From: Nanobdellota archaeon
GTDB lineage: Archaea; Nanobdellota; Nanobdellia; Pacearchaeales; GW2011-AR1
DNA: 42,737 nucleotides
Direction: 5' to 3'
Assembly: GCA_030611805.1 (NCBI GenBank)
Contig: JAUWPB010000006.1
Coordinates: 1 to 42,737, forward strand
Below the pieces are notes generated by a model. The model was not told the origin of the DNA, did no database searches, and saw only the letters and a list, made by a program, of their open reading frames with translations. A program made the position numbers and the translations under genes. This document shows positions 2,265 to 28,704 of this stretch, in pieces. The first letter of the stretch is position 1, and each line of letters starts with the position of its first letter.

Positions 2265-2314
2265 GGTTTATAATATTTTTCAGAAGAAAAATGTGGGGTT
2301 AAAAATTAATTAAT

Positions 2315-3091: not shown

Positions 3092-3203
3092 ACATCTATT
3101 TTTTAAGCATATTTAAATCTTTCTATTATGTAACTCCTATTAAGTTATAACCAATCTCAATCAAAGTCGTAACATTTATAACTTTCATTATATAATTAAA
3201 TCT

Positions 3204-4529: not shown

Positions 4530-4570
4530 ATAAAATTGTCAAAAAGAAGATTTATAAAATTTATCTATCA

Positions 4571-5845
4571 CTACTCTAACCTATTATTCAATTCATGACG
4601 AACATTCTCTAACATTTTTTTCTTCACAATTTCTTTATCTTTTGCCCATTCTTTATGCCCTAAAATCCAGCCCAACTTAATCAAGGCTGTTTCACTTAAC
4701 ATATCCTCTAAATAGATAATTCCGGTTTTCATTAATTCCCTTCCGTTAGAATAAACCAATGGGTCAAGCCGCCCATAAATAGTCTGGGCAGCAGCGCAAA
4801 TAATTAATCCTTTTTCCTGAGCTTCTTTAAGTTTTTTTATCCAGCTTTTTCTTGCCCTTTTTGTGGGGGCATGTCCAAGTCCGCTCATTTCTAAAATAAT
4901 TCCTTTATATTTTTTCTTCAGATAAAAATCCAGAATTTCAGGGTCTTGCCCGGGATAAACTTTAACTAAAGCAACTTTGTCTTCAAATTTAACATCAAGT
5001 TTTACCTTACTTTTATTTCTTAAATTATAATCTGAAATCATTACTATGCTATCAGAGAAAATTTTAGCAAAAGGTTTGGCATTAACAGTTTTAAAAGCAT
5101 CTCTTTTTGAAGAGTGCATTTTTCTAACTTTAGTTCCAGGCATGGCATGACAAAAATCATCATTTGAGGAAGCGTGTCCGACAAGCATAACTTCTGCAAT
5201 ATCTGAAATTGCTGCCAGAGTACTGCATTGTAAATTTAAATTAGCGTCGCTACTTGCCCGGTCAATACTTCTTTGACTGTATGTTAAGACAACTGGTTTA
5301 TTTAAATTTTTGAGAAAAAAACTCAAGGCAGCAGAGGTGTAATGTAAAAAGTCAGTTCCATGAGTGATGATTAATCCTTTTATGTTTGAATCATTCAAGA
5401 GTTTTTCAGCAACTCGTGCAATTTTCTGCCAGTCTTTAAAATCCATATCTTCTGAGGCTTTCATAAATGGGATTTCAATTTTCACAACATTAACTTTTTC
5501 AAAAATTCCCGGATAATATTTAAACAAACTCTCTGGGGAATCAAGCCAGTCAACTCCTCCTTTTTTAGGATTTAAACGTGCAGCAATTGTTCCGCCTGTA
5601 ATAATCATTGCAATATTTGGTTTATCTTTGTCTTTTTTTATTACAATATCTTCCTTTTTTTCTAAACCTTTTTCAATAAACTTAATCTCTAAAATATCTT
5701 TTTTATTAAATCCAATATTATAACCTGAATCTAATTTAAGCAAAATAATTCCTGGTTCAGGGTTTTCTAAAAGAATTCCAGTATATGTCTTTTTAACCAA
5801 AACAACTTTAATTTTATCCCCTGATTTATGGCTCTGTTTTTCCAT
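4571..5845 (-). CDS. gatD: Glu-tRNA(Gln) amidotransferase subunit D
   Basis: N-terminal GatD domain plus asparaginase domain (IITGGTIAARLNPKKGGVDW, ITHGTDFLHYTSAAL). Confidence 0.93.
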   Translation of the reverse strand: MEKQSHKSGDKIKVVLVKKTYTGILLENPEPGIILLKLDSGYNIGFNKKDILEIKFIEKGLEKKEDIVIKKDKDKPNIAMIITGGTIAARLNPKKGGVDWLDSPESLFKYYPGIFEKVNVVKIEIPFMKASEDMDFKDWQKIARVAEKLLNDSNIKGLIITHGTDFLHYTSAALSFFLKNLNKPVVLTYSQRSIDRASSDANLNLQCSTLAAISDIAEVMLVGHASSNDDFCHAMPGTKVRKMHSSKRDAFKTVNAKPFAKIFSDSIVMISDYNLRNKSKVKLDVKFEDKVALVKVYPGQDPEILDFYLKKKYKGIILEMSGLGHAPTKRARKSWIKKLKEAQEKGLIICAAAQTIYGRLDPLVYSNGRELMKTGIIYLEDMLSETALIKLGWILGHKEWAKDKEIVKKKMLENVRHELNNRLE

Positions 5846-5879
5846 GATAAATAAAAAGAAAGGGTGTATAAAAATGTTA

Positions 5880-6467
5880 TTAAATTTTTGATATTCTTAA
5901 CAGTTCTTTTAATGCAATTGGGAGTTCTTTAATCTTACTGCTTTCATCAAAATGTCCTTTGTTTTTTTCAATAATAACTTTAGCAGATAATTTTTCTTTA
6001 AAAAGTTCTTTATTAGTCAAAGGAACATAAGGGTCATTATCTGATAGTATGCAGACAAATTTATCTGTATGTGATTTTACTTTAACCCAATCAATCGGGG
6101 TGTCAACCCATGGTCTTACAATTTCTATAACTTCTTCACTTTCTTCCTCAATAGTTTGTTTATCTAAATGCATCCATGGAGCAATAAAAATAACTCCTCC
6201 AATTTTAATATTATTATCCAAAGTTTCCAGATATCTTAAAACAGCTTGACAGCCAATACTATGTCCTATAAAATATGTATTTTTATCAGGATTTATTGCA
6301 ATTTCCTTTATCTTTGAAACCCAGGGTTTTATCTTTGGTTTATCTGTGTCCGGCATTTCTGGAACTACAACGTCAAATCTTTTTTCTTCTAACTTTTTCT
6401 TTAACCATTTATGTAGGGGTTCTTTTGGGCTTCCTTCCCAACCATGAATAATAAAAACTCTTTTCAT
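5880..6467 (-). CDS. RBBP9/YdeN-type alpha/beta hydrolase
   Basis: VFIIHGWEGSPKEPLHKWLKKKLE, GHSIGCQAVLRYLE. Confidence 0.8.
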   Translation of the reverse strand: MKRVFIIHGWEGSPKEPLHKWLKKKLEEKRFDVVVPEMPDTDKPKIKPWVSKIKEIAINPDKNTYFIGHSIGCQAVLRYLETLDNNIKIGGVIFIAPWMHLDKQTIEEESEEVIEIVRPWVDTPIDWVKVKSHTDKFVCILSDNDPYVPLTNKELFKEKLSAKVIIEKNKGHFDESSKIKELPIALKELLRISKI

Positions 6468-6584
6468 AATAAAGATAAAATAAAAGAGTATAAAAAATTA
6501 ATGATTAAAAGAATTATAATGAGTTATGACTTCTTAAGAGTAACAGATAGAAAGATTTATAAAAGGCAAATTTGTTGAGAGAAC

Positions 6585-6848
6585 ATGGAAAGAAGTCCAA
6601 TGATACATAGAATTAATAAAGAAAATGGAATAGAAGATTATGCTAAAATGTTTAAACGAGGCGCTTTAATTTTTTGTTTATTATCTTCAATGTATTTTGG
6701 CCAAAGTGTCTTAAAAGGTTTAGGAGAAATTGAGAATCAGCAAATGGCAAGAGAAAGCGGAGTTCCTTCTGTTGAACAAAGTTATGTAGGTTATATGTGC
6801 TTAGGAGCCAAAAATCTTGCAGAAAAAGTCTATTCTATCTTAAAATAA
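6585..6848 (+). CDS. Small hypothetical protein with one predicted TM segment
   Basis: Hydrophobic RGALIFCLLSSMYFGQSVL; TATA-like TTTATAAAAG about 27 bp upstream of the ATG. Confidence 0.5.
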   Translation: MERSPMIHRINKENGIEDYAKMFKRGALIFCLLSSMYFGQSVLKGLGEIENQQMARESGVPSVEQSYVGYMCLGAKNLAEKVYSILK

Positions 6849-6943
6849 ACTTGAATTCTAAAACTTAATAGAGTAACATAAAATTTCTGCCAAAACATTT
6901 TTCTCTTAAAAAATATTATAAACCTTGTTTCTTTTTGTTTTAT

Positions 6944-8389
6944 ATGGATGAATTTGATTATGAAAAGTTGGGATTTAAGTGCGGGCTTGAAATCCATCAG
7001 CAATTAGATACTAAAAAGTTATTTTGTAATTGCCCTTCTTTGTTAAGAAGAGATGAACCTGATTTTGAAATTAGAAGAAAATTACACGCTGTTGCCGGAG
7101 AGTCAGGCGAAATTGACAAGGCCGCGATTTATCAGGCATCTTTGGATAAGGAATTTGTTTATCAGGGATATGATTCTACTTGTTTAGTTGAGTTGGACGA
7201 GGAGCCGCCGCATGAGATAAATAAAGAAGCTTTGAAAATTGCATTGCAGATAGCGTGTTTGTTAAATTGCAAAGTTGTCCCAATAACTCAGGTCATGAGA
7301 AAGGTTGTTATTGATGGCTCCACTACTTCTGGATTTCAAAGAACTGTTTTAATTGCGAGAGACGGTTATTTAGAAACAGAGCAAGGGAGAGTTGGAATTG
7401 ATTATATTTATTTAGAGGAAGATGCTGCGAGGATTGTTGAGAGAGAGAGAGGCAAGGCAGTTTATAAGTTAGATAGATTGGGTATTCCTCTTGTGGAGAT
7501 TGTTACTGCACCTGATGTGAAAACTCCTGAACAGGCGAAAGAGGTTGCACTTGAGATTGGAGATGTTTTAAGAAGTGTTAAAGTTCGAAGAGGGATTGGC
7601 ACAATTAGACAGGATGTTAATGTTTCTGTTCGGGGAGAAAACAGAGTTGAAATTAAAGGAATGCAGGATATGAATGTTTTTATTAAAGCAATTGAAAATG
7701 AGATTGAACGGCAGGTAAAATTATCTGATGATAAAAAACCTGTGAAGATGGAAGTGCGAAATGTTTTGCCTGATGCTACGACAAAATTTATGAGGCCTCT
7801 TCCGGGAAGTGCGAGAATGTATCCTGAAACTGATTTGCCTTTGTTAAAAATCTCCAGAAATTTTATCAATGATGTTAAAAAAACTTTACCAAAATTAAGA
7901 AGTGATATTGAAAAAGAGTTGAAAAGTAAGGGGTTAAATCAGGAGATGATTAAATTATTGTTTAAGCAGAATAAACTTGAAGAGTTTAGAGAACTCTTAG
8001 AGGTTATGGATGAGCCGCAATTAATTGGGAAGATTCTTTTGATTTTTCCAAAGGAGATCGCAAGGCACGAGAAAATATCTCTTGCAAAATCAGACAAAAT
8101 TTTGAATAAGGATATTTTAATTTTTATTGTTGAATCATTGAAAAAAAAGAAGATTTCTGAAGCGCAGATTAAACATGTTTTGGAAAGAATTATTAAAGGA
8201 GAGGATTTTAAAGAGGCTGTTGTGTTTGAAAAACAAGATATTAATGTTATTGAGGAAAAAATTATGAAGATAATGAAGGGTAAGCCAGGGCTTTCAGAAA
8301 AAGCTTATATGGGTTTGATAATGAAAGAGTTTAAAGGAAAGATAGACGGGAAAAAGGCCGTGGAAATTATTGGGAAGTATGTGAAGTGA
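6944..8389 (+). CDS. gatE: Glu-tRNA(Gln) amidotransferase subunit E
   Basis: YEKLGFKCGLEIHQQLDTKKLFCNCPS; ORF track starts at TTG 6935, but ATG 6944 is preferred. Confidence 0.95.
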   Translation: MDEFDYEKLGFKCGLEIHQQLDTKKLFCNCPSLLRRDEPDFEIRRKLHAVAGESGEIDKAAIYQASLDKEFVYQGYDSTCLVELDEEPPHEINKEALKIALQIACLLNCKVVPITQVMRKVVIDGSTTSGFQRTVLIARDGYLETEQGRVGIDYIYLEEDAARIVERERGKAVYKLDRLGIPLVEIVTAPDVKTPEQAKEVALEIGDVLRSVKVRRGIGTIRQDVNVSVRGENRVEIKGMQDMNVFIKAIENEIERQVKLSDDKKPVKMEVRNVLPDATTKFMRPLPGSARMYPETDLPLLKISRNFINDVKKTLPKLRSDIEKELKSKGLNQEMIKLLFKQNKLEEFRELLEVMDEPQLIGKILLIFPKEIARHEKISLAKSDKILNKDILIFIVESLKKKKISEAQIKHVLERIIKGEDFKEAVVFEKQDINVIEEKIMKIMKGKPGLSEKAYMGLIMKEFKGKIDGKKAVEIIGKYVK

Positions 8390-8436
8390 AAAGATAGATT
8401 AAAAGAATTTAAATATTAACAAAATAAAGAAATAAT

Positions 8437-9738
8437 ATGAAACTGAATTTAAAAAACAGGATTTTAATCAAGGAAGTTTTTGAGGGCAGGAAAAATAAAG
8501 CAGAGATTGCCGGATGGGTGCATAATACCCGGGAGTTGGGAAAAATAAAGTTCCTTCTTTTAAGAGATGTTTCTGGATTGATTCAGGTTACTGCTGTGAA
8601 AGGAAAAGTTAGGGAAGATATTTTTAAAATTCTTGACAAGATTCCAAGAGAATCTGTTGTGCATATTAAAGGGATTGTTAAAGATTCAAAACAGGCGCCT
8701 GGGGGAAAAGAGATTGTTCCGGATGAGATTGAAATTATTAGCAAGGCAGAAGATTTGCCGATTGATGTTTCTGAACATTCAAAGACAGAATTGCCGAAGA
8801 GACTGGATTATCGGTTTTTGGATTTGCATAGGACAAGGACTCAGGCGATTTTTAAAATTCAGTCCACGATTGGGTCTTCGTTTAAGAATTATTTTGTGGA
8901 CAAGGGTTTTACTGATGTGCATTTGCCTTCGCTGATTAGCACAAGTTCTGAAGGCGGAACTGAGTTGTTTGAGGTAAATTATTTTAATAAGAAAGTGTAT
9001 CTTGCGCAGAGTCCTCAGTTGTATAAGCAGATGCTTGCGTGCGCAATGGAGAATATTGTGACTATTGCTCCTGTTTGGAGAGCAGAAAAGCACAACACTG
9101 TTCGGCATGTGAATGAGTGTCGGCAGATGGATATTGAAATGGCTTTTGCAGATGCGAAAATTGTTTTGAAGGAGATGGAGGGAGTTGTAAAACATATTGT
9201 TGGGGAAGTTATTAAGAAAAATAAGGCAGAGTTGGATTTGCTTGGGGTTAAATTGAAAGTGCCGAAGATAAAGTATATGACATTTAAGGAAGTTGCTGAA
9301 CTGATGAAAAAGCAGAAGGTTGAGATGAAAGATGATGATTTGACAGGGGAAGCAGAGAGAAAGCTTGACGAGTTGTTTTCAGACACAATGGTTTTTGTTT
9401 ATGACTGGCCTATGAAAGGGAAGCCATTTTATATTATGCCCAAGGGAGAAGATTCAAATGCAAGGTTGAGCGAGGGTTTTGATGCTATTTACAAAGGAAT
9501 GGAAATTTGTTCTGGAGGACAGAGGATTCATATTCCTGAACTTTTGGAAAAGATGCTGAAGGCAAATGGTTTGAATCCAAAAGATTTCAAAAGTTATATT
9601 GATAGTTTTAGATTTGGCGCTCCGCCTCATGCAGGATGGAGTATTGGAATTGAAAGATTTACATACGCACTTCTTGAACTGCCGAATATCAGAGAAGCGT
9701 GTTTGTTTCCGAGAGACAGAGACAGACTTACTCCGTAG
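8437..9738 (+). CDS. aspS: Aspartyl-tRNA synthetase, archaeal, probably non-discriminating
   Basis: Class II motifs (FKNYFVDKGFTDVHLPSL, APVWRAEKHNTVRH, GWSIGIERFTYALLELPNIREACLFPRDRDRLTP); N-terminal OB fold. Confidence 0.95.
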   Translation: MKLNLKNRILIKEVFEGRKNKAEIAGWVHNTRELGKIKFLLLRDVSGLIQVTAVKGKVREDIFKILDKIPRESVVHIKGIVKDSKQAPGGKEIVPDEIEIISKAEDLPIDVSEHSKTELPKRLDYRFLDLHRTRTQAIFKIQSTIGSSFKNYFVDKGFTDVHLPSLISTSSEGGTELFEVNYFNKKVYLAQSPQLYKQMLACAMENIVTIAPVWRAEKHNTVRHVNECRQMDIEMAFADAKIVLKEMEGVVKHIVGEVIKKNKAELDLLGVKLKVPKIKYMTFKEVAELMKKQKVEMKDDDLTGEAERKLDELFSDTMVFVYDWPMKGKPFYIMPKGEDSNARLSEGFDAIYKGMEICSGGQRIHIPELLEKMLKANGLNPKDFKSYIDSFRFGAPPHAGWSIGIERFTYALLELPNIREACLFPRDRDRLTP

Positions 9739-9768
9739 GTTTTTAAATTAAGATTTCTTGAGGAAGTT

Positions 9769-9855
9769 ATGAAAATATTAGTAATAGGAGATTTTCATGG
9801 AAAGTTTCCCAAGAAATTAAAAGATAAAGTTAAAAAGATTAAATTCTTGAAATAA
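9769..9855 (+). pseudogene. Truncated N-terminus of a calcineurin-like metallophosphoesterase
   Basis: Reads MKILVIGDFHGKFPKKLKDKVKKIKFLK then TAA: only the GDxH motif remains. Confidence 0.55.
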
Positions 9856-9857
9856 TC

Positions 9858-10535
9858 ATGAAAAAGAAACCATATACTTGGGAAGAGATTAGGGAATTTT
9901 TAAGAAAAGAACTTGGGAAAACAAAGCATATTATGACTTTTGGAACAATTGGGTCTTGTAATGTTGAGCGAGATATTGACACAATTATAACTAAAAAACC
10001 TAAATCAAAATCTTCTTTATTTTATGAGGAGATGCATGGTATTTTTGATAATCTTAATTATCATTTAAATAAAAAATATGGAGTTCAATGTATTCGTTTT
10101 TATCAATGTGAACCCGAATTTTTAACTCTTTCAAATTTTCAGAAAAATGATTTAGCTATTCACGCACTGGTATATACTTCTTACAAACAAATTAGGGAAG
10201 ATTGGGAAAGGTCTCTTTTGCCAGGAGAAAATATTAAAGGAATTTTGGAAAAAAATTATAATTGTTTATTAGGTTCTGTGAAAGATTTATTTTCTAAAGA
10301 TTTTCAAGATGACTCTTATTCTTCAATGTTTTATTATATTCAAGTATATGATAGGATTAATTCAAATTATTCAGAAAAATTTTTAGTTGAAATTATGAAT
10401 TTTTATTATGATTTTGTATTTACTAAAAGATTAGGATTGAAAGCACCTATTGCTAAAAACAAAAAAGATGTTAGAAAATATTTTTACCAACTTTGTGATA
10501 TTGTGGATAAATTAAATGCTAAGAAAAGCAAATAA
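9858..10535 (+). CDS. Putative nucleotidyltransferase-fold protein
   Basis: FGTIGSCNVERDIDTIIT resembles a GS...DxD NTase motif; no further family recognised. Confidence 0.45.
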   Translation: MKKKPYTWEEIREFLRKELGKTKHIMTFGTIGSCNVERDIDTIITKKPKSKSSLFYEEMHGIFDNLNYHLNKKYGVQCIRFYQCEPEFLTLSNFQKNDLAIHALVYTSYKQIREDWERSLLPGENIKGILEKNYNCLLGSVKDLFSKDFQDDSYSSMFYYIQVYDRINSNYSEKFLVEIMNFYYDFVFTKRLGLKAPIAKNKKDVRKYFYQLCDIVDKLNAKKSK

Positions 10536-10565
10536 TCTTATAAACTAATTCTTCTTATTTCTATC

Positions 10566-10590
10566 ATGGATTTCCTATTTCACAAAGTTT
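10566..10590 (+). repeat. Left copy of exact 25-bp direct repeat (start of gatC)
   Basis: ATGGATTTCCTATTTCACAAAGTTT, identical to 11593-11617; here it encodes MDFLFHKVFKNENI then stop. Confidence 0.95.
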
Positions 10591-10623
10591 TTAAGAATGA
10601 AAACATTTAAATATCTATAAACT

Positions 10624-10656
10624 TATACAAATGTATAAATAAAAATACAATTGTAT
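10624..10656 (+). promoter_or_regulatory. Twin operators overlapping the predicted core promoter of the MNT/HEPN cassette
   Basis: ATACAAATGTAT (10625-10636) and ATACAATTGTAT (10645-10656), start-to-start 20 bp; TATAAATA (10634-10641) lies ~26 bp upstream of ATG 10660. Confidence 0.7.
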
Positions 10657-10659
10657 AAT

Positions 10660-11175
10660 ATGTTAGATAATAAAGAAAAGATTTTGAAGGTTTTTTTTGA
10701 TAGTCCTACTAAAGTGTTTCATATTAGGGAAATTGCCAGAAAAACTAAATTAAATCCTAATACTGTTTTAAATCTTCTTGCTGATTTAATAAAAAATAAA
10801 ATAGTAAAACGGGAAAAGAAAAAACATCTTGTAAATGTTTCTGCTTTGGTCAATGAAAATTTTCAAAGATTAAAAAGAGTTAATAATTTGAAGGTTCTTT
10901 ATGATTCCGGGCTTGTTGATTTTTTAGTGGATAAGTTTAGCCCTGAAGCTGTTTCTGTTATGGGGAGTTATTCTTGGGGCGAAGATATAGAAAATAGTGA
11001 TGTGGATATTGTGGTTGTTTCCAGTAAGGAAAAAATACTTGATTTATCTAAGTTTGAGAAGAAAATAGCCAGAAAGGTGCATTTGATTGTAGTAGATTAT
11101 AAAACTATTTCCAAAGAGTTTTACATAAATTTAATAAATGGGGTTGTGTTGTATGGATATCTAAATAAGAAGTAA
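10660..11175 (+). CDS. wHTH-MNT nucleotidyltransferase (probable antitoxin of a HEPN/MNT module)
   Basis: N-terminal winged HTH (FHIREIARKTKLNPNTVLNLLADLIKNKIVKREK) and MNT motif GSYSWGEDIENSDVDIVVV (GSx10DxD). TTG at 10651 is an alternative start. Confidence 0.8.
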   Translation: MLDNKEKILKVFFDSPTKVFHIREIARKTKLNPNTVLNLLADLIKNKIVKREKKKHLVNVSALVNENFQRLKRVNNLKVLYDSGLVDFLVDKFSPEAVSVMGSYSWGEDIENSDVDIVVVSSKEKILDLSKFEKKIARKVHLIVVDYKTISKEFYINLINGVVLYGYLNKK

Positions 11176-11176
11176 G

Positions 11177-11593
11177 ATGAAACCTTTTGAATATTATTTG
11201 CGTAGTGAATTGGTTAAAAAATCCCGGAAAGATGTAGAGAGAGCAAGATTCTTGATTAAAGATGCTAATGGAAGAATAGATGACTTGAATTTAATTGACA
11301 TGGAGAAGCTTCCGAAAATATTTTTTGAATATACTTATGATGCTTTGAGAGACCTTTGCGATGCGGTTTTGCTTTTAGACGGGTATAAATCTTTTTCTCA
11401 CGAAGCTTCAATTGTTTATTTGTCAAAAAAAGGTTTTGATGTTGCGACCCTTGGGAAGTTTGATAGATTTCGGTATAAGAGAAATGGTTCTAAATATTAT
11501 GGTGTGCCTATAACGGTAATGGATGCAAAAGATATAAAGGAGTTTTACTTGGAAATAAAAAAGAAATTAAATAAAATTTTGAACAAGATATAA
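11177..11593 (+). CDS. HEPN-domain protein (probable toxin partner)
   Basis: Helical ~138-aa protein directly after MNT: LVKKSRKDVERARFLI...YDALRDLCDAVLLLDGYKSFSHEASIVYL; RYKRNGSKYYG in the usual Rx4-6H region. Confidence 0.65.
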   Translation: MKPFEYYLRSELVKKSRKDVERARFLIKDANGRIDDLNLIDMEKLPKIFFEYTYDALRDLCDAVLLLDGYKSFSHEASIVYLSKKGFDVATLGKFDRFRYKRNGSKYYGVPITVMDAKDIKEFYLEIKKKLNKILNKI

Positions 11594-11617
11594 TGGATTT
11601 CCTATTTCACAAAGTTT
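11593..11617 (+). repeat. Right copy of exact 25-bp direct repeat (start of intact gatC)
   Basis: ATGGATTTCCTATTTCACAAAGTTT, identical to 10566-10590. Confidence 0.95.
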
Positions 11618-11850
11618 CTGAAAAAGAAAAGCAAGAGATTAAAGAGCAGGCAAAGGGCATAATGGATAGTTTTTCCAGAAAGCTTTCTAAGATTGATAAG
11701 AAGATGGCAGAGCCGTTGATTGAGAGAGATAAAGGAGAACGTGAAGAAGGGGTTGGTCTGGTTTGTGATAATGAGTTTAGAAAAATTATGTTTGAGAACG
11801 CGCCTGTGAAAAATGATGATTTTATAATTGCGGAGAAAAAATCATGGTAA
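11593..11850 (+). CDS. gatC: Aspartyl/glutamyl-tRNA amidotransferase subunit C (archaeal, short)
   Basis: C-terminal FRKIMFENAPVKNDDFIIAEKK matches the GatC '..NAP...dgffvvpk' ending; upstream of gatA; start overlaps the HEPN stop (TAATG). Confidence 0.7.
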   Translation: MDFLFHKVSEKEKQEIKEQAKGIMDSFSRKLSKIDKKMAEPLIERDKGEREEGVGLVCDNEFRKIMFENAPVKNDDFIIAEKKSW

Positions 11851-12560
11851 TGATAGATGCTCATTTACATTTAGGTTCAATTCCTTCTGGAAAAAAGAAT
11901 TGGGGGAGTTTCACAGAATATAAAAAAATAGCGAAGAAGATTGGAATTGAAAAATATTGTGTTGTTCCAATAGGATTGCCTAAAAATTTTGCTGACAAAA
12001 CAACCCCAGATAATAATTCTATTTTAAAAGAAGCAGAAAAAAATAAATCTCTTATTCCTGTTTATTGGTTTAATGTTTTTGATTTGCCAAAAAGTGTTGA
12101 TGAAAGATATAAGGCAATAAAATTACACTCTGATATTGGGAAAATAGATATTGATAATAAAAGAGTTGTGAATTTTGTTAATAAGATTAATCTTCCTGTT
12201 TTTGTTCATACAAATGAGAGTAAGGAATATACAAGTTTAGGTAAAGTTTCTAAACTAGCGAAAAAAGTTGAAGTGCCTGTTATTGCTGTTCATTCTGGTT
12301 CTGTTACTGGAACATTTTTTAAATTAGATAATTATGAGTTTCCAGATAATGTTTATTTTGAAACTTCAGGCATTCAATATTCTGTGATACTTAAAAAAAT
12401 TTATGAAAGATTTGGGGCAGAGAGAATTATTTTTGGGAGTGATTATCCTTTTGGAGACCCAAGGGTTTCTTTAGCAATGATTGATACACTAGAAGCGTCA
12501 AAAAAAGAATATAAATTAATGACTGAAGGAAACATAAAAAAGATTTTAAAATTAAAATGA
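11844..12560 (+). CDS. Amidohydrolase-family metal-dependent hydrolase
   Basis: MIDAHLHLGS, PVFVHTNE, RIIFGSDYPFGDP; ATG 11850 is an alternative start. Confidence 0.8.
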   Translation: MVMIDAHLHLGSIPSGKKNWGSFTEYKKIAKKIGIEKYCVVPIGLPKNFADKTTPDNNSILKEAEKNKSLIPVYWFNVFDLPKSVDERYKAIKLHSDIGKIDIDNKRVVNFVNKINLPVFVHTNESKEYTSLGKVSKLAKKVEVPVIAVHSGSVTGTFFKLDNYEFPDNVYFETSGIQYSVILKKIYERFGAERIIFGSDYPFGDPRVSLAMIDTLEASKKEYKLMTEGNIKKILKLK

Positions 12561-12910
12561 AAGGTAAATTTATTAAATTAATTGTAACAAGTAATGATGA
12601 GTTTAGATACCATTATACACTTAAGAAAGATGAAAATTTTTTTAAAAATTTTCCTTTTTTTTGTAATGATTTAGGAATTGATTTAGATTGGTTTAGTGAT
12701 TGGAGTCCAAGGAAACCAAATGATAAAAAAATAAAGGGATTAATTAAACAGAGAATTGATAAATCAGAATATGTTAGTGATAAGGGTTTTCATATAGACA
12801 TCTTTTATGGAAAAAATAATGTTGGATTAATCATCATAACTAAGAAAAAAAAGAAACTTGTTGAAACTGTTGAAAAATACTTTCGTTTTGAGGGGGAGAA
12901 ACTAAAATGA
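12557..12910 (+). CDS. Conserved hypothetical protein within the gatC-gatA operon
   Basis: Overlaps the genes on both sides (ATGA junctions). Confidence 0.6.
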   Translation: MKGKFIKLIVTSNDEFRYHYTLKKDENFFKNFPFFCNDLGIDLDWFSDWSPRKPNDKKIKGLIKQRIDKSEYVSDKGFHIDIFYGKNNVGLIIITKKKKKLVETVEKYFRFEGEKLK

Positions 12911-14217
12911 AAACCCTCCAAAAACTAAAAAAATACTTGGTAGAAATAAAAAAGAACGACAAATCTGGGAAAAAAATAAATGCATTTCTTCAGTTAAATC
13001 CTGATGCTGTTGAACAGGCAAAAAAAATTGACTCTAAAAAGAAAAAAGGAAAACTTGCGGGCAAAATAATCGCTGTTAAATCAAATATAAATGTTAAGGG
13101 TTTGAATGCTTCATGCGCTTCAAAGACTTTGGAAAATTATAAATCCCCTTATGATGCCACAATAATTAAGAAAATAAAAGAAGAAGATGGTTTGATTATT
13201 GGGATGACTAATATGGATGAGTTTGCTTGCGGTTGGAGTGGGGAGACTTCTGCTTTTGGTCCGACAAAAAATCCTCAGGCTTTGGATTTAGTTGCAGGAG
13301 GTTCTTCATCAGGAAGTGCAGCCTCGGTATCAGCAGAATTCTGCGACATGGCTTTGGGTTCAGATACAGGAGGGAGTATAAGAGTGCCTGCTTCTCATTG
13401 TGGAGTGGTGGGAATTAAACCAACATATTCCAGTGTTTCAAGATATGGGTTGATTGATATGTGCATGAGTTTTGACCAGATTGGTTCGTTTGCAAAAAAT
13501 GTTTTTGATGCGGGTTTATTGTTGAGTGTTATTCAAGGTAAAGATAATAATGATTCAATTTCTCAGGAAAGCAAGAAATTAAATCTTAAAGAAATTGAAA
13601 AAACTCCAAAAAACATAACAGTGGGGTTGCTTGATTTTCCTATTAGTGATAAAAAGATTCAGGAGTTAATTGAGAAAAGAGTTGATGAAGCAGTTAGAAA
13701 ATATAATTGGAAAATAAAAAAGATTAAGATACCTTATATTGATTTGGCAATTGCGACTTATTTTCCAATTGTTTATGTTGAGTTTTTTTCTGCAACAAGA
13801 AGATTTGATGGTCGGAAATATGGAAAAAGAATTGAAGATGTTGCAGGTCCGGAAGTTTTAAGAAGGATTTTAGGAGGAAGTGAAATCTCTCGGGCAGAAC
13901 ATCATGGAAGATATTATCATCTGGCATTGAAAGCGAAAAAATTAATAGAGGAAGAATTTGCAAAAGCATTTAAAGGCATTGATTGCATTATTTCTCCTGT
14001 GGTTCCAAGACTCCCTCATAAAATTGGAATTAAGATTTCTTCTGAAGAAATGTTTCAGTATGATGCTCTGACTTGCCCAATGAATATAGTTGGCAACTGT
14101 GCAATTTCAATTCCTGCTGGAAAAGTTGAAAACATTCCTGTGGGTATGCAGATAGTTTGTGATAAGTTTGAAGATGGAAAAATGTTGAGGATTGCCAGAA
14201 GTTTTGAGAAATTGTGA
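12907..14217 (+). CDS. gatA: Asp-tRNA(Asn)/Glu-tRNA(Gln) amidotransferase subunit A
   Basis: Amidase signature: AVKSNINVKG, GGSSSGSAASV, GSDTGGSIRVPASHCGVVGIKPTYSSVSRYGL. Confidence 0.95.
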   Translation: MKTLQKLKKYLVEIKKNDKSGKKINAFLQLNPDAVEQAKKIDSKKKKGKLAGKIIAVKSNINVKGLNASCASKTLENYKSPYDATIIKKIKEEDGLIIGMTNMDEFACGWSGETSAFGPTKNPQALDLVAGGSSSGSAASVSAEFCDMALGSDTGGSIRVPASHCGVVGIKPTYSSVSRYGLIDMCMSFDQIGSFAKNVFDAGLLLSVIQGKDNNDSISQESKKLNLKEIEKTPKNITVGLLDFPISDKKIQELIEKRVDEAVRKYNWKIKKIKIPYIDLAIATYFPIVYVEFFSATRRFDGRKYGKRIEDVAGPEVLRRILGGSEISRAEHHGRYYHLALKAKKLIEEEFAKAFKGIDCIISPVVPRLPHKIGIKISSEEMFQYDALTCPMNIVGNCAISIPAGKVENIPVGMQIVCDKFEDGKMLRIARSFEKL

Positions 14218-21545: not shown

Positions 21546-22757
21546 ATGACTTTTGAAGATCAATTAAAAGAAATTAGAAGAGGAACAGTTGATATCCTCA
21601 CAGAAAATGAACTATTTAGGAAACTGAAAAAAAAAAGACCTCTTAATGTAAAATTTGGGGTTGATCCTACTGCTCCGGACATTCATCTAGGCCATACTGT
21701 TCCATTACGGAAATTAAAGCAATTTCAAGATTTAGGACATAAGACCCAATTGATTATTGGAGATTATACTGCAACGATTGGAGATCCAAGTGGAAGGAGT
21801 GAAACAAGACCTATATTAAATAGAGAAGAAATAGAAAGAAACATGAAGACATATCAAGAACAGGCTTTCAAAATTTTGGATCCAAATAGGACAGAACTAA
21901 TATATAATAGTGTATGGTTAGGACAATTTTCTGGGACTGATATGATTAAATTAGGTTCAAAGTATACAGTTCAACAACTTCTACAAAGAAGAGATTTTAG
22001 AGAAAGAATAAAACAAAATAAACCTTTATCAGTTACTGAATTATTATACCCGCTTCTTGTCGGTTATGATTCTGTACATCTTAAGAGCGATATAGAAATT
22101 GGGGGTACAGACCAATTATTTAATTTTGTGGCAAGCAGAGTGATACAAAAAGCGTATGGTCAAGAACCAGAAGTTATCATAACCCTTCCTTTACTTGAAG
22201 GGGTAGATGGGGTAAAAAAGATGAGTAAAAGTTTAGATAATGCTATAAGTGTTAGTGATAATCCAAATAATATTTATGGAAAAATAATGTCTATATCTGA
22301 TGATTTAATGTTAAGATATTATGAATTATTGTCAGATACATCAATAGAAGAATTACAGGAAATTAAAGAAACTATTACAACCGGGAGTGTAAATCCCATG
22401 AGATATAAACAAAAATTGGCAAGAGAAATAGTTTCTAGATATTATGACAAAGATCATTCTGTGTCTGCTGAAGAAAGATTTAATAGAGTACATAGAAGAA
22501 GAGATATTCCAAATCAATTAGAAGAAGAAGCAATAAGGTATTCTATAGATAGAAAAGGTCTGCCTATTATCAGTATTCTTAAACAAATTGGAAGAGCCAA
22601 ATCTAATAGTGAAGCAAGGAGACTCATAGAGCAAAGAGGGGTAAGATTGGATGGAGAAGTTATAGATGATATTTATTATTCTGTTTCCCCTAAAAATGGT
22701 CAGGTTATCCAAGTTGGAAAAAGATATTTCAAAAAACTGAAATATGAGAGAGATTAA
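21546..22757 (+). CDS. tyrS: Tyrosyl-tRNA synthetase, bacterial type with C-terminal S4 domain
   Basis: VKFGVDPTAPDIHLGHTVPLRKLKQFQDLGH, GDYTATIGDPSGRSETRP, KKMSKSLDNAI; S4-like AKSNSEARRLIEQRGVRLDGEVI. Confidence 0.95.
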   Translation: MTFEDQLKEIRRGTVDILTENELFRKLKKKRPLNVKFGVDPTAPDIHLGHTVPLRKLKQFQDLGHKTQLIIGDYTATIGDPSGRSETRPILNREEIERNMKTYQEQAFKILDPNRTELIYNSVWLGQFSGTDMIKLGSKYTVQQLLQRRDFRERIKQNKPLSVTELLYPLLVGYDSVHLKSDIEIGGTDQLFNFVASRVIQKAYGQEPEVIITLPLLEGVDGVKKMSKSLDNAISVSDNPNNIYGKIMSISDDLMLRYYELLSDTSIEELQEIKETITTGSVNPMRYKQKLAREIVSRYYDKDHSVSAEERFNRVHRRRDIPNQLEEEAIRYSIDRKGLPIISILKQIGRAKSNSEARRLIEQRGVRLDGEVIDDIYYSVSPKNGQVIQVGKRYFKKLKYERD

Positions 22758-22804
22758 TTTTTTAGAAATAGTTTTATAAATAAGTTTTTATTAATAAAAT
22801 TAAA

Positions 22805-23815
22805 ATGGAACCAAAAGAAAAGTTTAATTTAATAACAAGAAATCTTCAGGAGATAATAACAGAAGAAGAATTAAAATACTTGCTGAAGAAAGAGAAAGAA
22901 ATTTCAGTTTATTGGGGGACTATGCCTACTGGGAGCATATCTGTAGCATACTTTTTTCCAATGTTAAAAATAGCTGATTTTTTAAAGGCCGGGTTAAAGG
23001 TTAAGATATTAATAGCAGATTTGCATGCCGCTTTAAATGGAGTTCCGTGGGAGTTATTAGAAAAGAGAACAGAGTACTATAAAAGAGCAATAGTTCTTAT
23101 TTTAAAAAAAATTGGGGTAGATATTAAAAAACTTGAATTTATTAAAGGAAGTAACATACAACTAAAAGGAAAATATTTTGAGGATGTGTTAAGATTAAGT
23201 ATGATGTCTGGTGTTAGAAATTGTAAAAAAGCTGCATCAGAAGTGGTAAAGATAACAGATAATCCTCGACTTGGGAATCTTATTTATCCTCTAATGCAGG
23301 CGTTAGATGAAGAATACCTAAAAGTACACATTCAATATGCTGGGTTAGATCAAAGGAAAATTATGGTTTATGCAAGGGAGAATCTCCCAAAAATTGGATA
23401 CAAGCCAAGGGTAGAACTAATGTCGCCAATGATTAGAGGACTTGTTGGTGAAAAAATGAGTTCAAGTATAGAAGCTACAAAAATTGATTTGCTTGATAAT
23501 GAAAATAACATCAAGAAAAAGGTAAATGGTGCAGAATGCATCGAAGGAGATGTAAATAATGGAATAATGTCTTTATTAAGATATTTTATCATGATATTAA
23601 AAGAAGACAAAAAAAGTAGTTTCGTTGTTGAAAGACCAGAAAAATTTGGGGAGACTATTAAATATATAAATTATGAAGAGATTGAGAGGGATTTTAAATC
23701 TAAAAAGTTGCATCCCTTGGATTTGAAAAATGCTGTTGCTAAAGAATTGAATATTTTATTAAAAGCTTTTAGGGAAGATAAGGAATTGCTGGATTTGCAT
23801 AAGAAGGCCTATTGA
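22805..23815 (+). CDS. Tyrosyl-tRNA synthetase, archaeal/eukaryotic type, degenerate HIGH motif
   Basis: VYWGTMPTGSISVAYFFPMLKIADFLKAGLKVKILIADLHAALN...YPLMQALDEEYL...GLDQRKI...GEKMSSS. Confidence 0.9.
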   Translation: MEPKEKFNLITRNLQEIITEEELKYLLKKEKEISVYWGTMPTGSISVAYFFPMLKIADFLKAGLKVKILIADLHAALNGVPWELLEKRTEYYKRAIVLILKKIGVDIKKLEFIKGSNIQLKGKYFEDVLRLSMMSGVRNCKKAASEVVKITDNPRLGNLIYPLMQALDEEYLKVHIQYAGLDQRKIMVYARENLPKIGYKPRVELMSPMIRGLVGEKMSSSIEATKIDLLDNENNIKKKVNGAECIEGDVNNGIMSLLRYFIMILKEDKKSSFVVERPEKFGETIKYINYEEIERDFKSKKLHPLDLKNAVAKELNILLKAFREDKELLDLHKKAY

Positions 23816-23842
23816 TAAAAATGAGATAAAAAAGAGGAAAGA

Positions 23843-24904
23843 ATGAAGAATAAAAAAATTACCTTTGATAGAAAATATTATAGTTCTATTATGAAAGAAT
23901 TTGGTTATAATCCCTTAGAATTTGAAAAAATTAATTTTTCTTTAGGAAATTTAAAAAAAGATGATCTTCAAAGAATGTGGTTATGCCATCATGATGGGAA
24001 TAGTTTTGCTAGAGATTTAGAAAAAGGTAAAAAAATAATCGTGAGTACTGGATTTGGACTTTCTGGAGAACCGCATATAGGGACATTATCTCAGATTTTA
24101 AGATCTATAGCATTACAAAAAGCAGGAATTCCTGTGCAGATTGTTCTAGGAGATTTAGATGCTTATAATGGAAAGACCATTCCTCTAAAAAAGACATTAG
24201 AATTATCAAAAAAATATAGGAGATTTATTTTATCATTAGGTTTTAATAAAAGAAAAGGATCTATTCTTAGAGAACAATATGGGGAGTTAGATGTTTTAAG
24301 GACATCATATATTATCGGACACTTTATGGATGATAAAATGTTTAATGAAGCTGAAGAAGATCTTCACTCTTTTTACCATAAAAGAGGAAAGGTAGACAGA
24401 GAAATGAGTTACAGAAGAAAATTATCTTTAAACCTAATGATTGCAGATTTTATGAACTTATGCTTTGAACACAAATACAGAAATATTTTAGTTATGTTAG
24501 GTATAGACGAACACCAATATATTAGATTTGGTAGAGAAACTATAAGAAGAATGAAAGAAAGTAAACAGTTTGAAAATTTTGATATGACTCTCTCTGCAAT
24601 ATACTCTCCGATGATAAAAGGATTTTTTAATTATCCTAAAATGTCAAAAAGTTTTCCAAAGTCTAGTATCAGTGTTAATATGAATCCTGAACAAATAAAA
24701 CATAGAATAATTTATGGTGAAGGGAAGTATGACAAGCCCGAAAATAATGTAGTTTATCAAATGATGGCTTCTGTAAGTTATTATACTGCAGAAGAAATTA
24801 AAAGATTGTATAAATTATGTTTAAAGGGAGGCTCTGATTGGGAAAAATCAAAAAAAAAGTATGCAGAAATTTTAATAAAAATTTGTTCAAAATGGGAGAA
24901 GTAA
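23843..24904 (+). CDS. Class Ic aminoacyl-tRNA synthetase-like protein (TrpRS/TyrRS superfamily paralogue)
   Basis: STGFGLSGEPHIGTLSQILRSIALQKAGIPVQIVLGDLDAYN (HIGT), GIDEHQYIRFGRETIRRM, SPMIKGFFNYPKMSKSFPKSSISV (KMSKS, TrpRS-like context). Confidence 0.75.
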   Translation: MKNKKITFDRKYYSSIMKEFGYNPLEFEKINFSLGNLKKDDLQRMWLCHHDGNSFARDLEKGKKIIVSTGFGLSGEPHIGTLSQILRSIALQKAGIPVQIVLGDLDAYNGKTIPLKKTLELSKKYRRFILSLGFNKRKGSILREQYGELDVLRTSYIIGHFMDDKMFNEAEEDLHSFYHKRGKVDREMSYRRKLSLNLMIADFMNLCFEHKYRNILVMLGIDEHQYIRFGRETIRRMKESKQFENFDMTLSAIYSPMIKGFFNYPKMSKSFPKSSISVNMNPEQIKHRIIYGEGKYDKPENNVVYQMMASVSYYTAEEIKRLYKLCLKGGSDWEKSKKKYAEILIKICSKWEK

Positions 24905-26010
24905 AAATTACTAAAAACAATGCAGTTAGTGAAGTTTTATACAGAATTAATGTGCAATCGAAAATAAACTTAAAACTTCTAGGAGAAGCTTTTGATTCTG
25001 TTTTATCTAATCCTAAACAATATGTAAGAGATATCCAACTTGGAGCAATTCTAACTGGAATAATGGCGAGAGGTCCAACAACTGATGAAATTGTAACTTT
25101 GTTGAAATCTGTTTTTAAGTTAGATAAATTTAACCCTAAGAAGAGATATAAAATAAAAATACCTAAGGGAGAACTGTTAATTGGTGCAATAGGTAGCGGA
25201 AAAAAAGGAGTAAAAACTATGAATATCTCAACTCCTGCACTTTTAACTGCTGCAAGTGCCGGAGCATTCACAGCAAAAGTAGTTTCTTGTTCTACAAGTT
25301 CTTTAACTGGTTCTGCAGATTTTTTGCGTGAAGTTGGAATGAATCTCAATCTTTCAATTAAAGAGATGGAAGAAGTAGTAAGCAAAACAAAATTTGGTGC
25401 GTTTACTATAGAAAGTCTTTTACCTAAGTTTAATTCTATTTATGCAAAAAGATTTTATGCTCCACATGCTTTAAGTTTTGGTTTGGCTGCTTTAGCGAGC
25501 CCAATTAAATATGATAATTTCTTATATGGATTAGCTCACCCAAACATAAATCTCTCTATAAATGTGTTAAAAAAATTCGAAATTGAAAATGTAATGGTAG
25601 TTTCTGCAAGTAATGATGGAATACACTACATAGACGAAATGGGGGTTTATGGAATGACTAAGATAAAAGGAATACACAATGGTAAAATTGGATACACAAA
25701 AAAGTTTAATCCTCTAGTTAAATTAAACCTGCCCAAGTATCAATCAAGAGACATTTGCGAAGGAAAAAATAAGAGAGAGAATATAAAGTTGGTTATAGAT
25801 GTTTTAAGAGGAAAAGGTGAAAAAGCAAGGGAAGATATAATTTGTATTAATGCTGGAACAATTCTTTATTTAGCAAGAAAGGCAAAAAACCTTAAAGAAG
25901 GATATATGATCTCTAAAAAAGTTATACAAGAGGGGATTCCATTTAAGAAGTTATTAGAAGTAATCAAGGAAAGTGGTGGTGATGAAAAGAAAATAAAGAG
26001 GTATTTATGA
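24892..26010 (+). CDS. TrpD-like (glycosyl transferase family 3) phosphoribosyltransferase, diverged active site
   Basis: LLIGAIGSGKKGVKTMNISTPALLTAASAGAFTAKVVSCSTSSLTGSADFLREVGMNLN aligns with TrpD GTGGDGxxTFNIST...KHGNRxxSSxxGSADxLExLG; DEMGVYGMTK in place of DExxxxGxT. Confidence 0.75.
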   Translation: MGEVKITKNNAVSEVLYRINVQSKINLKLLGEAFDSVLSNPKQYVRDIQLGAILTGIMARGPTTDEIVTLLKSVFKLDKFNPKKRYKIKIPKGELLIGAIGSGKKGVKTMNISTPALLTAASAGAFTAKVVSCSTSSLTGSADFLREVGMNLNLSIKEMEEVVSKTKFGAFTIESLLPKFNSIYAKRFYAPHALSFGLAALASPIKYDNFLYGLAHPNINLSINVLKKFEIENVMVVSASNDGIHYIDEMGVYGMTKIKGIHNGKIGYTKKFNPLVKLNLPKYQSRDICEGKNKRENIKLVIDVLRGKGEKAREDIICINAGTILYLARKAKNLKEGYMISKKVIQEGIPFKKLLEVIKESGGDEKKIKRYL

Positions 26011-26011
26011 A

Positions 26012-27010
26012 ATGAAAGCAGTAGTTATTTCTAAAAAAAGGAAAATAGAATATAAAGAAATTCCAGAACCTAAATTAAAAAGAGGATATGTTAAAATAAA
26101 GGTAAAAGCAACAGGACTTTGCGGAAGCGATATTCAAAAAATATTTTCTGATAAAAAGGCATTAACTTTAATAAAAACAAATATCTGGGGTCATGAGATT
26201 TCTGGCGTAGTTTATGAAATTGGAAAAAATGTAAAAAAGTTTAGAAAAGGCGATAGAGTAATTATAAATCCTCTTATTAGAAATAAAGAAGATGATAATA
26301 TTACTATGGTTAAGTCTATTGGCAAGGATTTTCCAGGGGGATTTGCAGAATATGTTTTAGTTCCTTATCAAAATTTGAGAAAAATTCCCCAGAAGATAGA
26401 TTTTGAAGAAGCTGTTTTAACAGATAGTATTGCAGTAGCATTACATGGATACCATCTTTCTGGTGCTCCTTCCAACAAAGACATACTAATAATTGGAGAT
26501 GGCTCTCTTGCATTAATTACAAGCCTTATTTGTTTAGAATTCAATAATAAAGTAACCATAATCGGAAAGAATCTTAAAAACCTAGATTTAGCTTCCAATT
26601 TTGGGGCAGATTCTTTAAAAGATAGCCAGATAAAAAATTTGAAGGGAAATTATGATATTATTTTTGAGGTTGTTGGAAGAAGGCAGAATAAAACCTTAAG
26701 AAATGCTATAAGATTCATCAAACCGAATGGTCAGATAGTTGTTTTAGGAGTATTTGAAAAAGGTTTCTATGGAAAAATTCCCTTAAGAGAACTCTTTTAT
26801 AAAGAAGGTAAAATTGTGGGATCAAATTCTTACGGTTTCTTTGATAGAAAAAATGAATTTGATATGGCCATAAATTTATTAAGAAAGATAAAGCCAAAAT
26901 TTTCACAACTCATAACAAATGTAATGCCTCTTAAAGACTTCAAAAGTGGTCTAAATTTGATAAAAAATAAAAAAGATTCCAAAGTTATAAAGATAGTTTT
27001 TAAACCATGA
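26012..27010 (+). CDS. Medium-chain (zinc-type) dehydrogenase
   Basis: GLCGSDIQKIF, WGHEISGVVYEIGKNVKKFRKGDRV, PGGFAEYVLVP; structural-Zn Cys cluster absent. Confidence 0.85.
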   Translation: MKAVVISKKRKIEYKEIPEPKLKRGYVKIKVKATGLCGSDIQKIFSDKKALTLIKTNIWGHEISGVVYEIGKNVKKFRKGDRVIINPLIRNKEDDNITMVKSIGKDFPGGFAEYVLVPYQNLRKIPQKIDFEEAVLTDSIAVALHGYHLSGAPSNKDILIIGDGSLALITSLICLEFNNKVTIIGKNLKNLDLASNFGADSLKDSQIKNLKGNYDIIFEVVGRRQNKTLRNAIRFIKPNGQIVVLGVFEKGFYGKIPLRELFYKEGKIVGSNSYGFFDRKNEFDMAINLLRKIKPKFSQLITNVMPLKDFKSGLNLIKNKKDSKVIKIVFKP

Positions 27011-27639
27011 AAAAAATTAAATGTTTTATATTTGACCAAGACGGAACTTTTTATCCTGAGAACAGCAAACTTACAAATGTATTAAGAGAGAAAACAAAAA
27101 AGTGGTTAATGGGTAAACTTTCTTTAGATAGAAGAGAGGTTGAGAATCTTTATAAAAGACTCCCAAGAAAGTATCCAAATACTTTAGACGGGTTTAGATC
27201 ATTGGGTTTAAATATAAAGGATTATCATAGAAATGTTTTTGATATTATAAATCCCTCAGAATATTTATCACAAGATGAGAATCTAATTTCCATATTAAAA
27301 AAATTAAAGAGAAATAGATTTGTAGTAACATTCGCATCAAAAAAATATTCAAAGTCTTTACAAAAAACATTAGGAATAAATAATCTCATCAAACAAACAT
27401 ATTCTTTAATTGATTTCTTTCCCAAAACCTCTAAACTGCATGCATATGAATATATAAGAAAAAACAATAACTTAAATAGGAAAGATATCTGCATCGTGGG
27501 CAATAATCTAGAAGTAGATTTAATTCCTGCATTAAATAAGGGGTATAAAACAATTTTAATTGGTGCTTCTACAAAAAAATTTAAAGTTAAATCAATCCAA
27601 AATATACAGGGATTGTCGGCGGTTTGTGATGGCATTTAA
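27007..27639 (+). CDS. HAD-superfamily hydrolase, pyrimidine 5'-nucleotidase-like
   Basis: FIFDQDGTFYPENSKLT (DxDGT), FASKKYSKSL, IVGNNLEVDLIPALNKGYKTILIG. Confidence 0.75.
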   Translation: MKKIKCFIFDQDGTFYPENSKLTNVLREKTKKWLMGKLSLDRREVENLYKRLPRKYPNTLDGFRSLGLNIKDYHRNVFDIINPSEYLSQDENLISILKKLKRNRFVVTFASKKYSKSLQKTLGINNLIKQTYSLIDFFPKTSKLHAYEYIRKNNNLNRKDICIVGNNLEVDLIPALNKGYKTILIGASTKKFKVKSIQNIQGLSAVCDGI

Positions 27640-27798: not shown

Positions 27799-28704
27799 AT
27801 GTTTGACATAATAAGTTTTGGGAGCGCTGTGGTTGATGTCTTTGCAGGCACAGATATTCCGGAAAAAAAGAAATGCATTGCTTATCCAGTGGGTTCCAAA
27901 ATTTTAATAAAGGATTTGAAATTTGATATTGGTGGAGGTGGAACTAATACGGCTGTTGCGTTCTCCAGACTTGGATTAAAAACAGGTTTCATAGGCAAAA
28001 TTGGCGACGATAAACAGGGGCAGGAAATTCTGAACCTCTTAAAAAAAGAAAAAATAAAATTTCTTGGAAAGATTGAGAGTAGAGCAAATAGTGGATATTC
28101 CATTATTCTGGATAGTAGGGAAAAAAACAGAACTATTCTGACTTACAAAGGAATAAATAATGAATTCAGATTTTCTGAACTTAATTTGAGAAAAATAAAA
28201 ACAAGATGGTTATATTTGTCTTCTTTATTAGGCGAGAGTTTTAAGACTCAAAAAAAGCTTGCCGGAATTTTGCATAAAAAGGGCGTAAAAATAGCTTATA
28301 ACCCCAGCGAATATATAATCAGGAAATACAGGAAAAAGAAATTATCTGAAATCTTAAAGTTATGTGATGTTTTAATATTAAATAAAGATGAAGCTAAGCT
28401 TTTGGTTTTGGAAAAAGATTTATTAAAAGGGTTGCGAAATCTTGGAGCGAAAATTGTTGTAATTACTGACAAAAATAAATTAATTAGTTGTTTTGACGGG
28501 GAGAAAAAATATTATTTAAAGCCGCATAAAATTAAAGTAGTAGAAAGAACCGGGGCAGGAGATGCATTTGCTTCAGGATTTGTTGCCGGGCAGGTTGCTG
28601 AAAAAAATATTATGGAAAGTTTAAAACTTGGATTAAGTGAAAGCGAGAGTGTAATTAAATATTTTGGAGCAAAAAATAAATTGTTGAGGCTGAAATTGAG
28701 ATGA
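27799..28704 (+). CDS. PfkB-family carbohydrate kinase (candidate phosphofructokinase by context)
   Basis: DIGGGGTNTAVAFSRLGLKTGFIGKIGDDKQG, ERTGAGDAFASGFVAG; overlaps the FBA gene. Confidence 0.85.
   Translation: MFDIISFGSAVVDVFAGTDIPEKKKCIAYPVGSKILIKDLKFDIGGGGTNTAVAFSRLGLKTGFIGKIGDDKQGQEILNLLKKEKIKFLGKIESRANSGYSIILDSREKNRTILTYKGINNEFRFSELNLRKIKTRWLYLSSLLGESFKTQKKLAGILHKKGVKIAYNPSEYIIRKYRKKKLSEILKLCDVLILNKDEAKLLVLEKDLLKGLRNLGAKIVVITDKNKLISCFDGEKKYYLKPHKIKVVERTGAGDAFASGFVAGQVAEKNIMESLKLGLSESESVIKYFGAKNKLLRLKLR

Follow-up and report, generated by a model that had tools for sequence, protein, structure and literature searches.

We analysed a stretch of 42,737 nucleotides from a Nanobdellota archaeon (assembly GCA_030611805.1, contig JAUWPB010000006.1, positions 1 to 42,737), hereafter the window, and in it a block of six packed genes at 21546–27639. 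That the block belongs to a conserved, mobile cassette is close to certain: its central trio, a diverged tryptophanyl-tRNA synthetase (TrpRS)-like enzyme, a diverged TrpD-like phosphoribosyltransferase and a zinc-type dehydrogenase, keeps its order in three archaeal families, and a decayed copy in a further genome carries the marks of transfer between genera. For its function we propose, at not quite even confidence, a cassette for a specialised metabolite, rare and spread laterally among DPANN archaea, to which tyrosyl-tRNA synthetases (TyrRS) are linked as target or supplier.

All six open reading frames (ORFs) lie on the forward strand, with successive spacings of exactly 47, 27, -13, 1 and -4 bp. 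An earlier sequence-only reading of this DNA had given the same genes, strand, coordinates and gaps or overlaps, all of which matched the ORF check, and its family labels agreed with searches against Pfam and NCBIfam profiles:

Gene 1, 21546..22757, + strand, 403 amino acids: bacterial-type TyrRS with an S4 domain (TIGR00234, PF00579, PF01479).
Gene 2, 22805..23815, + strand, 336 amino acids: archaeal TyrRS (PRK08560).
Gene 3, 23843..24904, + strand, 353 amino acids: diverged TrpRS-like class Ic enzyme, cassette core (PF00579).
Gene 4, 24892..26010, + strand, 372 amino acids: diverged TrpD-like phosphoribosyltransferase, cassette core (PF00591); its start is an ATG within a longer ORF that opens with TTG.
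Gene 5, 26012..27010, + strand, 332 amino acids: zinc-type medium-chain (polyol) dehydrogenase, cassette core (PF08240/PF00107).
Gene 6, 27007..27639, + strand, 210 amino acids: nucleotidase-like HAD phosphatase (TIGR01993).

The host assembly (855 kb) encodes five PF00579 proteins: genes 1–3, a eukaryote-like TyrRS that adjoins a GTPase gene on contig C21, and an ordinary TrpRS on contig C27. Because the genome thus has a separate ordinary TyrRS and TrpRS, all three synthetase-like genes of the block are extra, and the possibility left open by the sequence-only reading, that gene 3 might be the only TrpRS of the organism, does not apply. A tRNA-Trp gene was present; tRNA-Tyr was not found in this assembly, which is 89.6% complete, and a pattern search for it was likewise without a match.

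Judged by its sequence, gene 3 is not an ordinary TrpRS. It matches PF00579 with 56.9 bits, falls below the curated TrpRS cut-offs (68.1 vs 176.75 for TIGR00233; 74.9 vs 451 for NF008925) and is 22–25% identical to the TrpRS of the genomes studied here. We aligned it and its two homologues, described below, with 37 tryptophanyl- and tyrosyl-tRNA synthetases from these genomes (27 TrpRS, 10 TyrRS). Gene 3 and both homologues have Glu (E223 in gene 3) where all 37 have Gln, and Met (M199 in gene 3) where Gln stands in every TrpRS (27/27) and in nine of the 10 TyrRS. From the structures of MjTyrRS and human TrpRS, we take these two glutamines to touch the amino group of the substrate; with both replaced, the substrate of gene 3, or its placement, is probably altered relative to the Tyr and Trp synthetases. 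The KMSKS motif is intact in all three proteins, and HIGH reads HIGT, with Thr as the fourth residue. A cyclodipeptide synthase was considered for gene 3 and rejected, given the intact KMSKS and this HxGT version of HIGH. Compared with TrpRS, the C-terminal region is shortened, with part of its helical segment still there. AlphaFold models built from three-sequence alignments had mean predicted local distance difference test scores of 53 and 49 and served solely to check the class Ic fold; at this low confidence, the gene 3 model matched archaeal TrpRS and TyrRS in foldseek, and the best match was the TrpRS of Aeropyrum (3a04). No relatives of gene 3 were found in plasmids, phages or IMG/VR.

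Gene 4 departs from its family in a similar way and, by the same kind of evidence, is not an ordinary TrpD. It aligns over its full length with solved TrpD, scores 150.8 bits against TIGR01245 trpD (cut-off 199.05), and keeps the NIST, SADxL and DE motifs, the metal-binding pair D248-E249 being present in all three homologues. In all three, the phosphoribosyl pyrophosphate (PRPP) loop GTGGD has become GSGKKG, and the anthranilate motif KHGN is lost and replaced by K(V/P)(V/G)S. In plasmids, the ten matches listed for gene 4 were ordinary trpD-like proteins of less than 29% identity. The archaeal genome G045 encodes a diverged TrpD-like protein of another kind (1489–2577, + strand), with a GTGGSK loop, no KHGN and 29% identity to gene 4; no trio surrounds its gene, and it was set aside as a cassette member.

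The search with gene 4 covered 380 genomes of the phylum and, together with further searches at family, class and order level, about 650 distinct genomes in total. It returned two strong relatives (about 58–59% and 44% identity), after which matches fell to about 30%. Both belong to a trio of genes 3, 4 and 5 in the same order, on JAGVXY010000011.1 (Woesearchaeota RIFOXYB1_FULL_34_13; 64, 58 and 45% identity to the window for genes 3, 4 and 5) and on JABHXU010000020.1 (archaeon SI047_bin43 from Saanich Inlet, hereafter SI047; 55, 44 and 35%). The trio is therefore colinear in three archaeal families, and the HAD gene accompanies it at two of the three intact loci. The family-, class- and order-level searches gave no further intact copy, leaving three intact loci and one wreck; a scan of 85,462 species genomes used two short peptide patterns only and is not a census. 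The sequence-only reading had looked to co-occurrence across archaea. Of its TrpRS-like, TrpD-like and HAD trio, the first two do recur together, at both other loci; with the HAD gene added, the set recurs at SI047 and not at the Woesearchaeal locus; and of the six genes as a unit, the core of genes 3–5 is conserved in two other families, while the full intact set was found in the window genome alone.

At the SI047 locus, the HAD gene and a bacterial-type TyrRS also stand beside the trio; the TyrRS gene is divergently oriented and adjoins gene 3. The same run includes a methyltransferase and an ORF that resembles a beta-propeller by eye and matched no family. The SI047 genome also has an archaeal TyrRS and TrpRS of its own. 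The GC content of the run (4298–13132) is 33–35%, against 23–29% in most flanking genes; a DnaJ gene also reaches 33%, so this is a weak sign. A 168-residue ORF at this locus (5247–5753, − strand) weakly matches radical SAM/SPASM proteins over part of their length and is perhaps a fragment. The Woesearchaeal assembly showed no TrpRS or TyrRS besides the gene 3 homologue; contigs are probably missing from it, so surplus status cannot be assigned to gene 3 there. Downstream of the Woesearchaeal trio lie a gene for a 369-residue protein without a match in Pfam, NCBIfam, PADLOC or Protein Data Bank sequences (6737–7846, − strand) and, directly downstream, a HIT-family hydrolase gene (8167–8568, − strand). 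HIT enzymes can split aminoacyl-nucleotide bonds (PMC7157772), and this gene is possibly, not necessarily, part of the pathway; it was not retained as an MccH-type immunity gene, its motif being the ordinary HxHxH and not the HxHxK of MccH. A linked extra synthetase thus occurs in more than one organism, namely in the window, at the decayed locus and in SI047, and not at the Woesearchaeal locus.

The decayed locus lies on JAFCEV010000004.1 (Pacearchaeota, Meg22_1214_Bin_270). Of gene 1, the final 46 codons survive there (70% identity), and gene 2 is intact (83%); gene 3 contains stops and ends after about 80 codons, and genes 4–6 are wholly gone. The cassette is dispensable in this organism. 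The resident TyrRS there is a pseudogene with stops, frameshifts and a deletion, and adjoins the same GTPase as the contig C21 TyrRS of the window genome. As the only intact TyrRS in the assembly, gene 2 should be the working enzyme, unless another went unassembled. Gene 2 is 83% identical between this genome and the window genome, whereas the genus mates of the former are only 60–65% identical to it, which indicates that the cassette moved between genera. An intron-bearing tRNA gene (44–136, − strand), which may have been the integration site, lies immediately next to the wreck at the end of the contig. Which type of TyrRS stands beside the GTPase gene varies among family members, and in one of them the place is taken by a pseudogene; this points to frequent TyrRS replacement in Pacearchaeota.

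Taken together, the patchy distribution, the signature of transfer and the altered pocket residues are more in keeping with a specialised pathway than with a housekeeping one. One alternative is a tRNA- or RNA-modification pathway, in which gene 4 would ribosylate a base or an RNA end, gene 3 would add an amino acid to the modified nucleoside, as GluQ-RS does, and the TyrRS copies would charge the affected tRNA. Synthetase paralogues that modify tRNA exist, GluQ-RS being one; some of the helical region at the C-terminus of gene 3 is still present, and there is the linkage to TyrRS genes. Pathways of this kind tend to be inherited broadly, however, whereas here three intact loci were found in about 650 genomes and the cassette could be lost from Meg22_1214_Bin_270; a 5'-nucleotidase-like HAD and a polyol dehydrogenase point instead to free small molecules. 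We consider RNA modification quite unlikely.

The evidence for free small molecules comes from genes 5 and 6. In gene 5, C37, H61 and E62 are invariant across homologues, the structural-zinc loop is deleted in the window copy, and the nearest solved family is galactitol-1-phosphate 5-dehydrogenase. Gene 6 scores 71 bits against TIGR01993, the pyrimidine-5'-nucleotidase-like HAD family (cut-off 143); it and its SI047 homologue (36% identity) keep DxDGT, and its nearest solved relatives are xanthosine monophosphate (XMP) phosphatases (7ef6). None of the six genes matched the defence-system models of PADLOC. The block is flanked by a phosphoglycerate kinase gene (ending at 21451) on one side and by a run of PfkB, aldolase and triosephosphate isomerase genes on the other. 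We rejected the downstream PfkB gene (27799–28704) as a cassette member, since family relatives that have no gene 3 carry this run as well; the cassette therefore most likely ends at gene 6.

These genes would also suit a pathway for the cell's own use, whether for a cofactor, an osmolyte or salvage, with gene 3 as an amino-acid ligase. MshC, the CysRS-derived ligase of mycothiol synthesis that acts on an amino-sugar, is a precedent for such a role; every enzyme of the block is compatible with ordinary intermediary metabolism, and the block stands among sugar-metabolism genes. A needed cofactor would hardly be so sporadic, the neighbours of the trio differ at the other loci, and two or three surplus TyrRS would be left unexplained. 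We regard this explanation as unlikely.

The surplus TyrRS are of two kinds. Gene 1 scores 359.5 bits against TIGR00234 tyrS (cut-off 113.8), its closest solved structures are the TyrRS of H. pylori, Acinetobacter and Thermus (6byq/6bqy/1h3e), and it is 45–49% identical to ordinary bacterial TyrRS. It is 30% identical to the bacterial-type TyrRS of SI047, which itself reaches only about 30% with the bacterial TyrRS compared. Since gene 1 is so much nearer to ordinary bacterial TyrRS than the SI047 copy is, separate recruitment of the two is likely, if not proved. Gene 2 scores 288.9 bits against the TyrRS model PRK08560 (cut-off 220), and is 54–69% identical to the single TyrRS of many members of this archaeal family; it is the type most common there, and adjoins the GTPase gene in several members. 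From these comparisons and the decayed locus, it appears to be a genuine TyrRS and seems able to act as the sole one. Throughout the family, this type has lost both histidines of HIGH (S-I-S-V-A-Y in gene 2) and keeps an intact KMSSS. The altered motif recalls the mupirocin hyper-resistant IleRS2 (PMC10485003); as it occurs across the family, it is no proof of resistance for gene 2.

In SI047 a single tRNA-Tyr was found; it is archaeal in type, its features being C1-G72, an intron and a short variable arm. Bacterial TyrRS normally require G1-C72 and normally do not charge tRNA-Tyr with C1-G72, which is the basis of orthogonal Tyr pairs. In these loci, therefore, a bacterial-type TyrRS probably does not act as a plain immunity copy, short of a change in its tRNA specificity; it could instead be a decoy, an enzyme that has been retargeted, or one that activates tyrosine within the pathway.

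Could the TyrRS genes be unrelated neighbours of a real trio pathway, kept or acquired there by chance through ordinary TyrRS replacement? The family has several TyrRS types, usually one per genome, no TyrRS lies near the Woesearchaeal trio, and the two bacterial-type copies differ as just described, gene 1 being closer to ordinary bacterial TyrRS. On the other side, a surplus bacterial-type TyrRS adjoins gene 3 or lies one gene off in two families, three TyrRS in one 855-kb genome are exceptional, and at this genome size chance alone would set a particular gene next to a particular neighbour in about one case in 1000 (a rough estimate). We consider mere neighbourhood improbable, and the least favoured of the alternatives weighed here.

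The specialised-metabolite cassette, as we envisage it, would work as follows. Gene 4 would phosphoribosylate some acceptor that is not anthranilate, the HAD phosphatase (gene 6) would remove the 5'-phosphate, and the zinc dehydrogenase (gene 5) would oxidise a sugar hydroxyl. Gene 3, with KMSKS kept, would activate an aromatic amino acid or an analogue at the expense of ATP and couple it to the ribosyl scaffold, directly or via tRNA. The predicted product, akin to an aminoacyl-nucleoside, would have as its target TyrRS or another, related synthetase of class Ic. As a spare functional TyrRS, gene 2 would shield translation; gene 1 would be a second insensitive copy, a decoy or a tyrosine-activating partner of gene 3, in the manner of AcmD with AcmF. 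Counting for this reading are the trio order kept in three families, the decayed copy that keeps only gene 2 where the resident TyrRS is broken, the changed substrate residues of gene 3 and donor and acceptor motifs of gene 4 in all three homologues, the kinship of the HAD with nucleoside monophosphate phosphatases, and the precedents of AcmD/AcmF and SbzA.

Several points weigh against it. No product, activity or transporter is known, and we saw no gene, of aminotransferase or sulfamate type, from which an amine acceptor could come. With GSGKKG in place of GTGGD, the use of PRPP by gene 4 remains a prediction. The SI047 bacterial-type TyrRS faces an archaeal C1-G72 tRNA-Tyr, and the 20 kb read at the Woesearchaeal locus contain no TyrRS near the trio. 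Finally, there are only three intact loci, which makes the gene content of the ancestral cassette uncertain.

The fuller proposal, doubtful as it stands, is that a mobile DPANN pathway makes an aminoacyl-ribosyl compound against the TyrRS of neighbours or hosts, using a new class Ic activating enzyme and a TrpD-fold ribosyltransferase, with the spare TyrRS as self-protection. If the metabolite reading itself is right, it would show a small biosynthetic cassette being exchanged, together with self-protection, between archaea whose genomes fall below a megabase. It would also single out two enzyme families whose new chemistry can be predicted: one of class Ic synthetases, in which the amino-acid pocket differs, and one of TrpD-fold transferases, altered at both the donor and the acceptor site. 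The cassette would also be a lead toward natural TyrRS inhibitors, of which SB-219383 is the only one named in a review (PMC7916415). Our literature search, which had most subscription journals outside its coverage, found no description of such a cluster.

Elsewhere in the window (894–14217), genes for GatB, GatD, GatE, a GatA-like amidase and a class II D/K/N-type synthetase lie close together, which suggests that both GatCAB and GatDE are present in one very small genome.

Among known enzymes, gene 3 resembles canonical archaeal TrpRS in its class Ic catalytic domain, its KMSKS and, as far as the model allows, its nearest structural neighbour from Aeropyrum; it differs in its low identity (22–25%), the two replaced pocket glutamines, HIGT and the shortened C-terminal region. 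Gene 4 is like TrpD in its full-length alignment and its NIST, SADxL and DE motifs, and unlike it in the family's GSGKKG for GTGGD, the loss of KHGN and a score under the trpD cut-off. The likeness of gene 3 to MshC, by analogy, would lie in a class I synthetase fold that couples an amino acid to a sugar-derived acceptor without tRNA; it is one of proposed role, and gene 3 is in a different synthetase subclass.

Among known clusters, the ascamycin genes (acm) come closest in logic. There, AcmD charges tRNA, and AcmF, a shortened, site-altered AlaRS-like protein, moves alanine onto the nucleoside (PMC12945691). The block would share with acm, at the level of cluster logic only, a canonical synthetase and a shortened, site-altered synthetase-like protein beside nucleoside-scaffold enzymes. 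Unlike the block, acm is bacterial and uses AlaRS, a class II enzyme, where the block is archaeal and class Ic; AcmF has lost its ATP-binding residues, whereas gene 3 keeps KMSKS; and the block has no sulfamate genes, while acm, as far as the review says, has no TrpD-like transferase. TyrRS itself turns nucleoside sulfamates into tight inhibitors (PMC7613620, PMC11671014), and natural dealanylascamycin is reported to hit PfAspRS, not PfTyrRS (PMC12262901). In the SB-203208 cluster (sbz), the extra IleRS-like protein SbzA is named as a self-resistance protein and also carries out transfer (PMC12945691, PMC6331615). The block would resemble sbz in having an extra class I synthetase in the cluster, SbzA being a case that joins self-resistance with aminoacyl transfer; it differs in that sbz has IleRS, sulfonamide chemistry and one extra synthetase, against three here. 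The block is not a member of the ascamycin or SB-203208 systems by sequence; it may work in a similar way.

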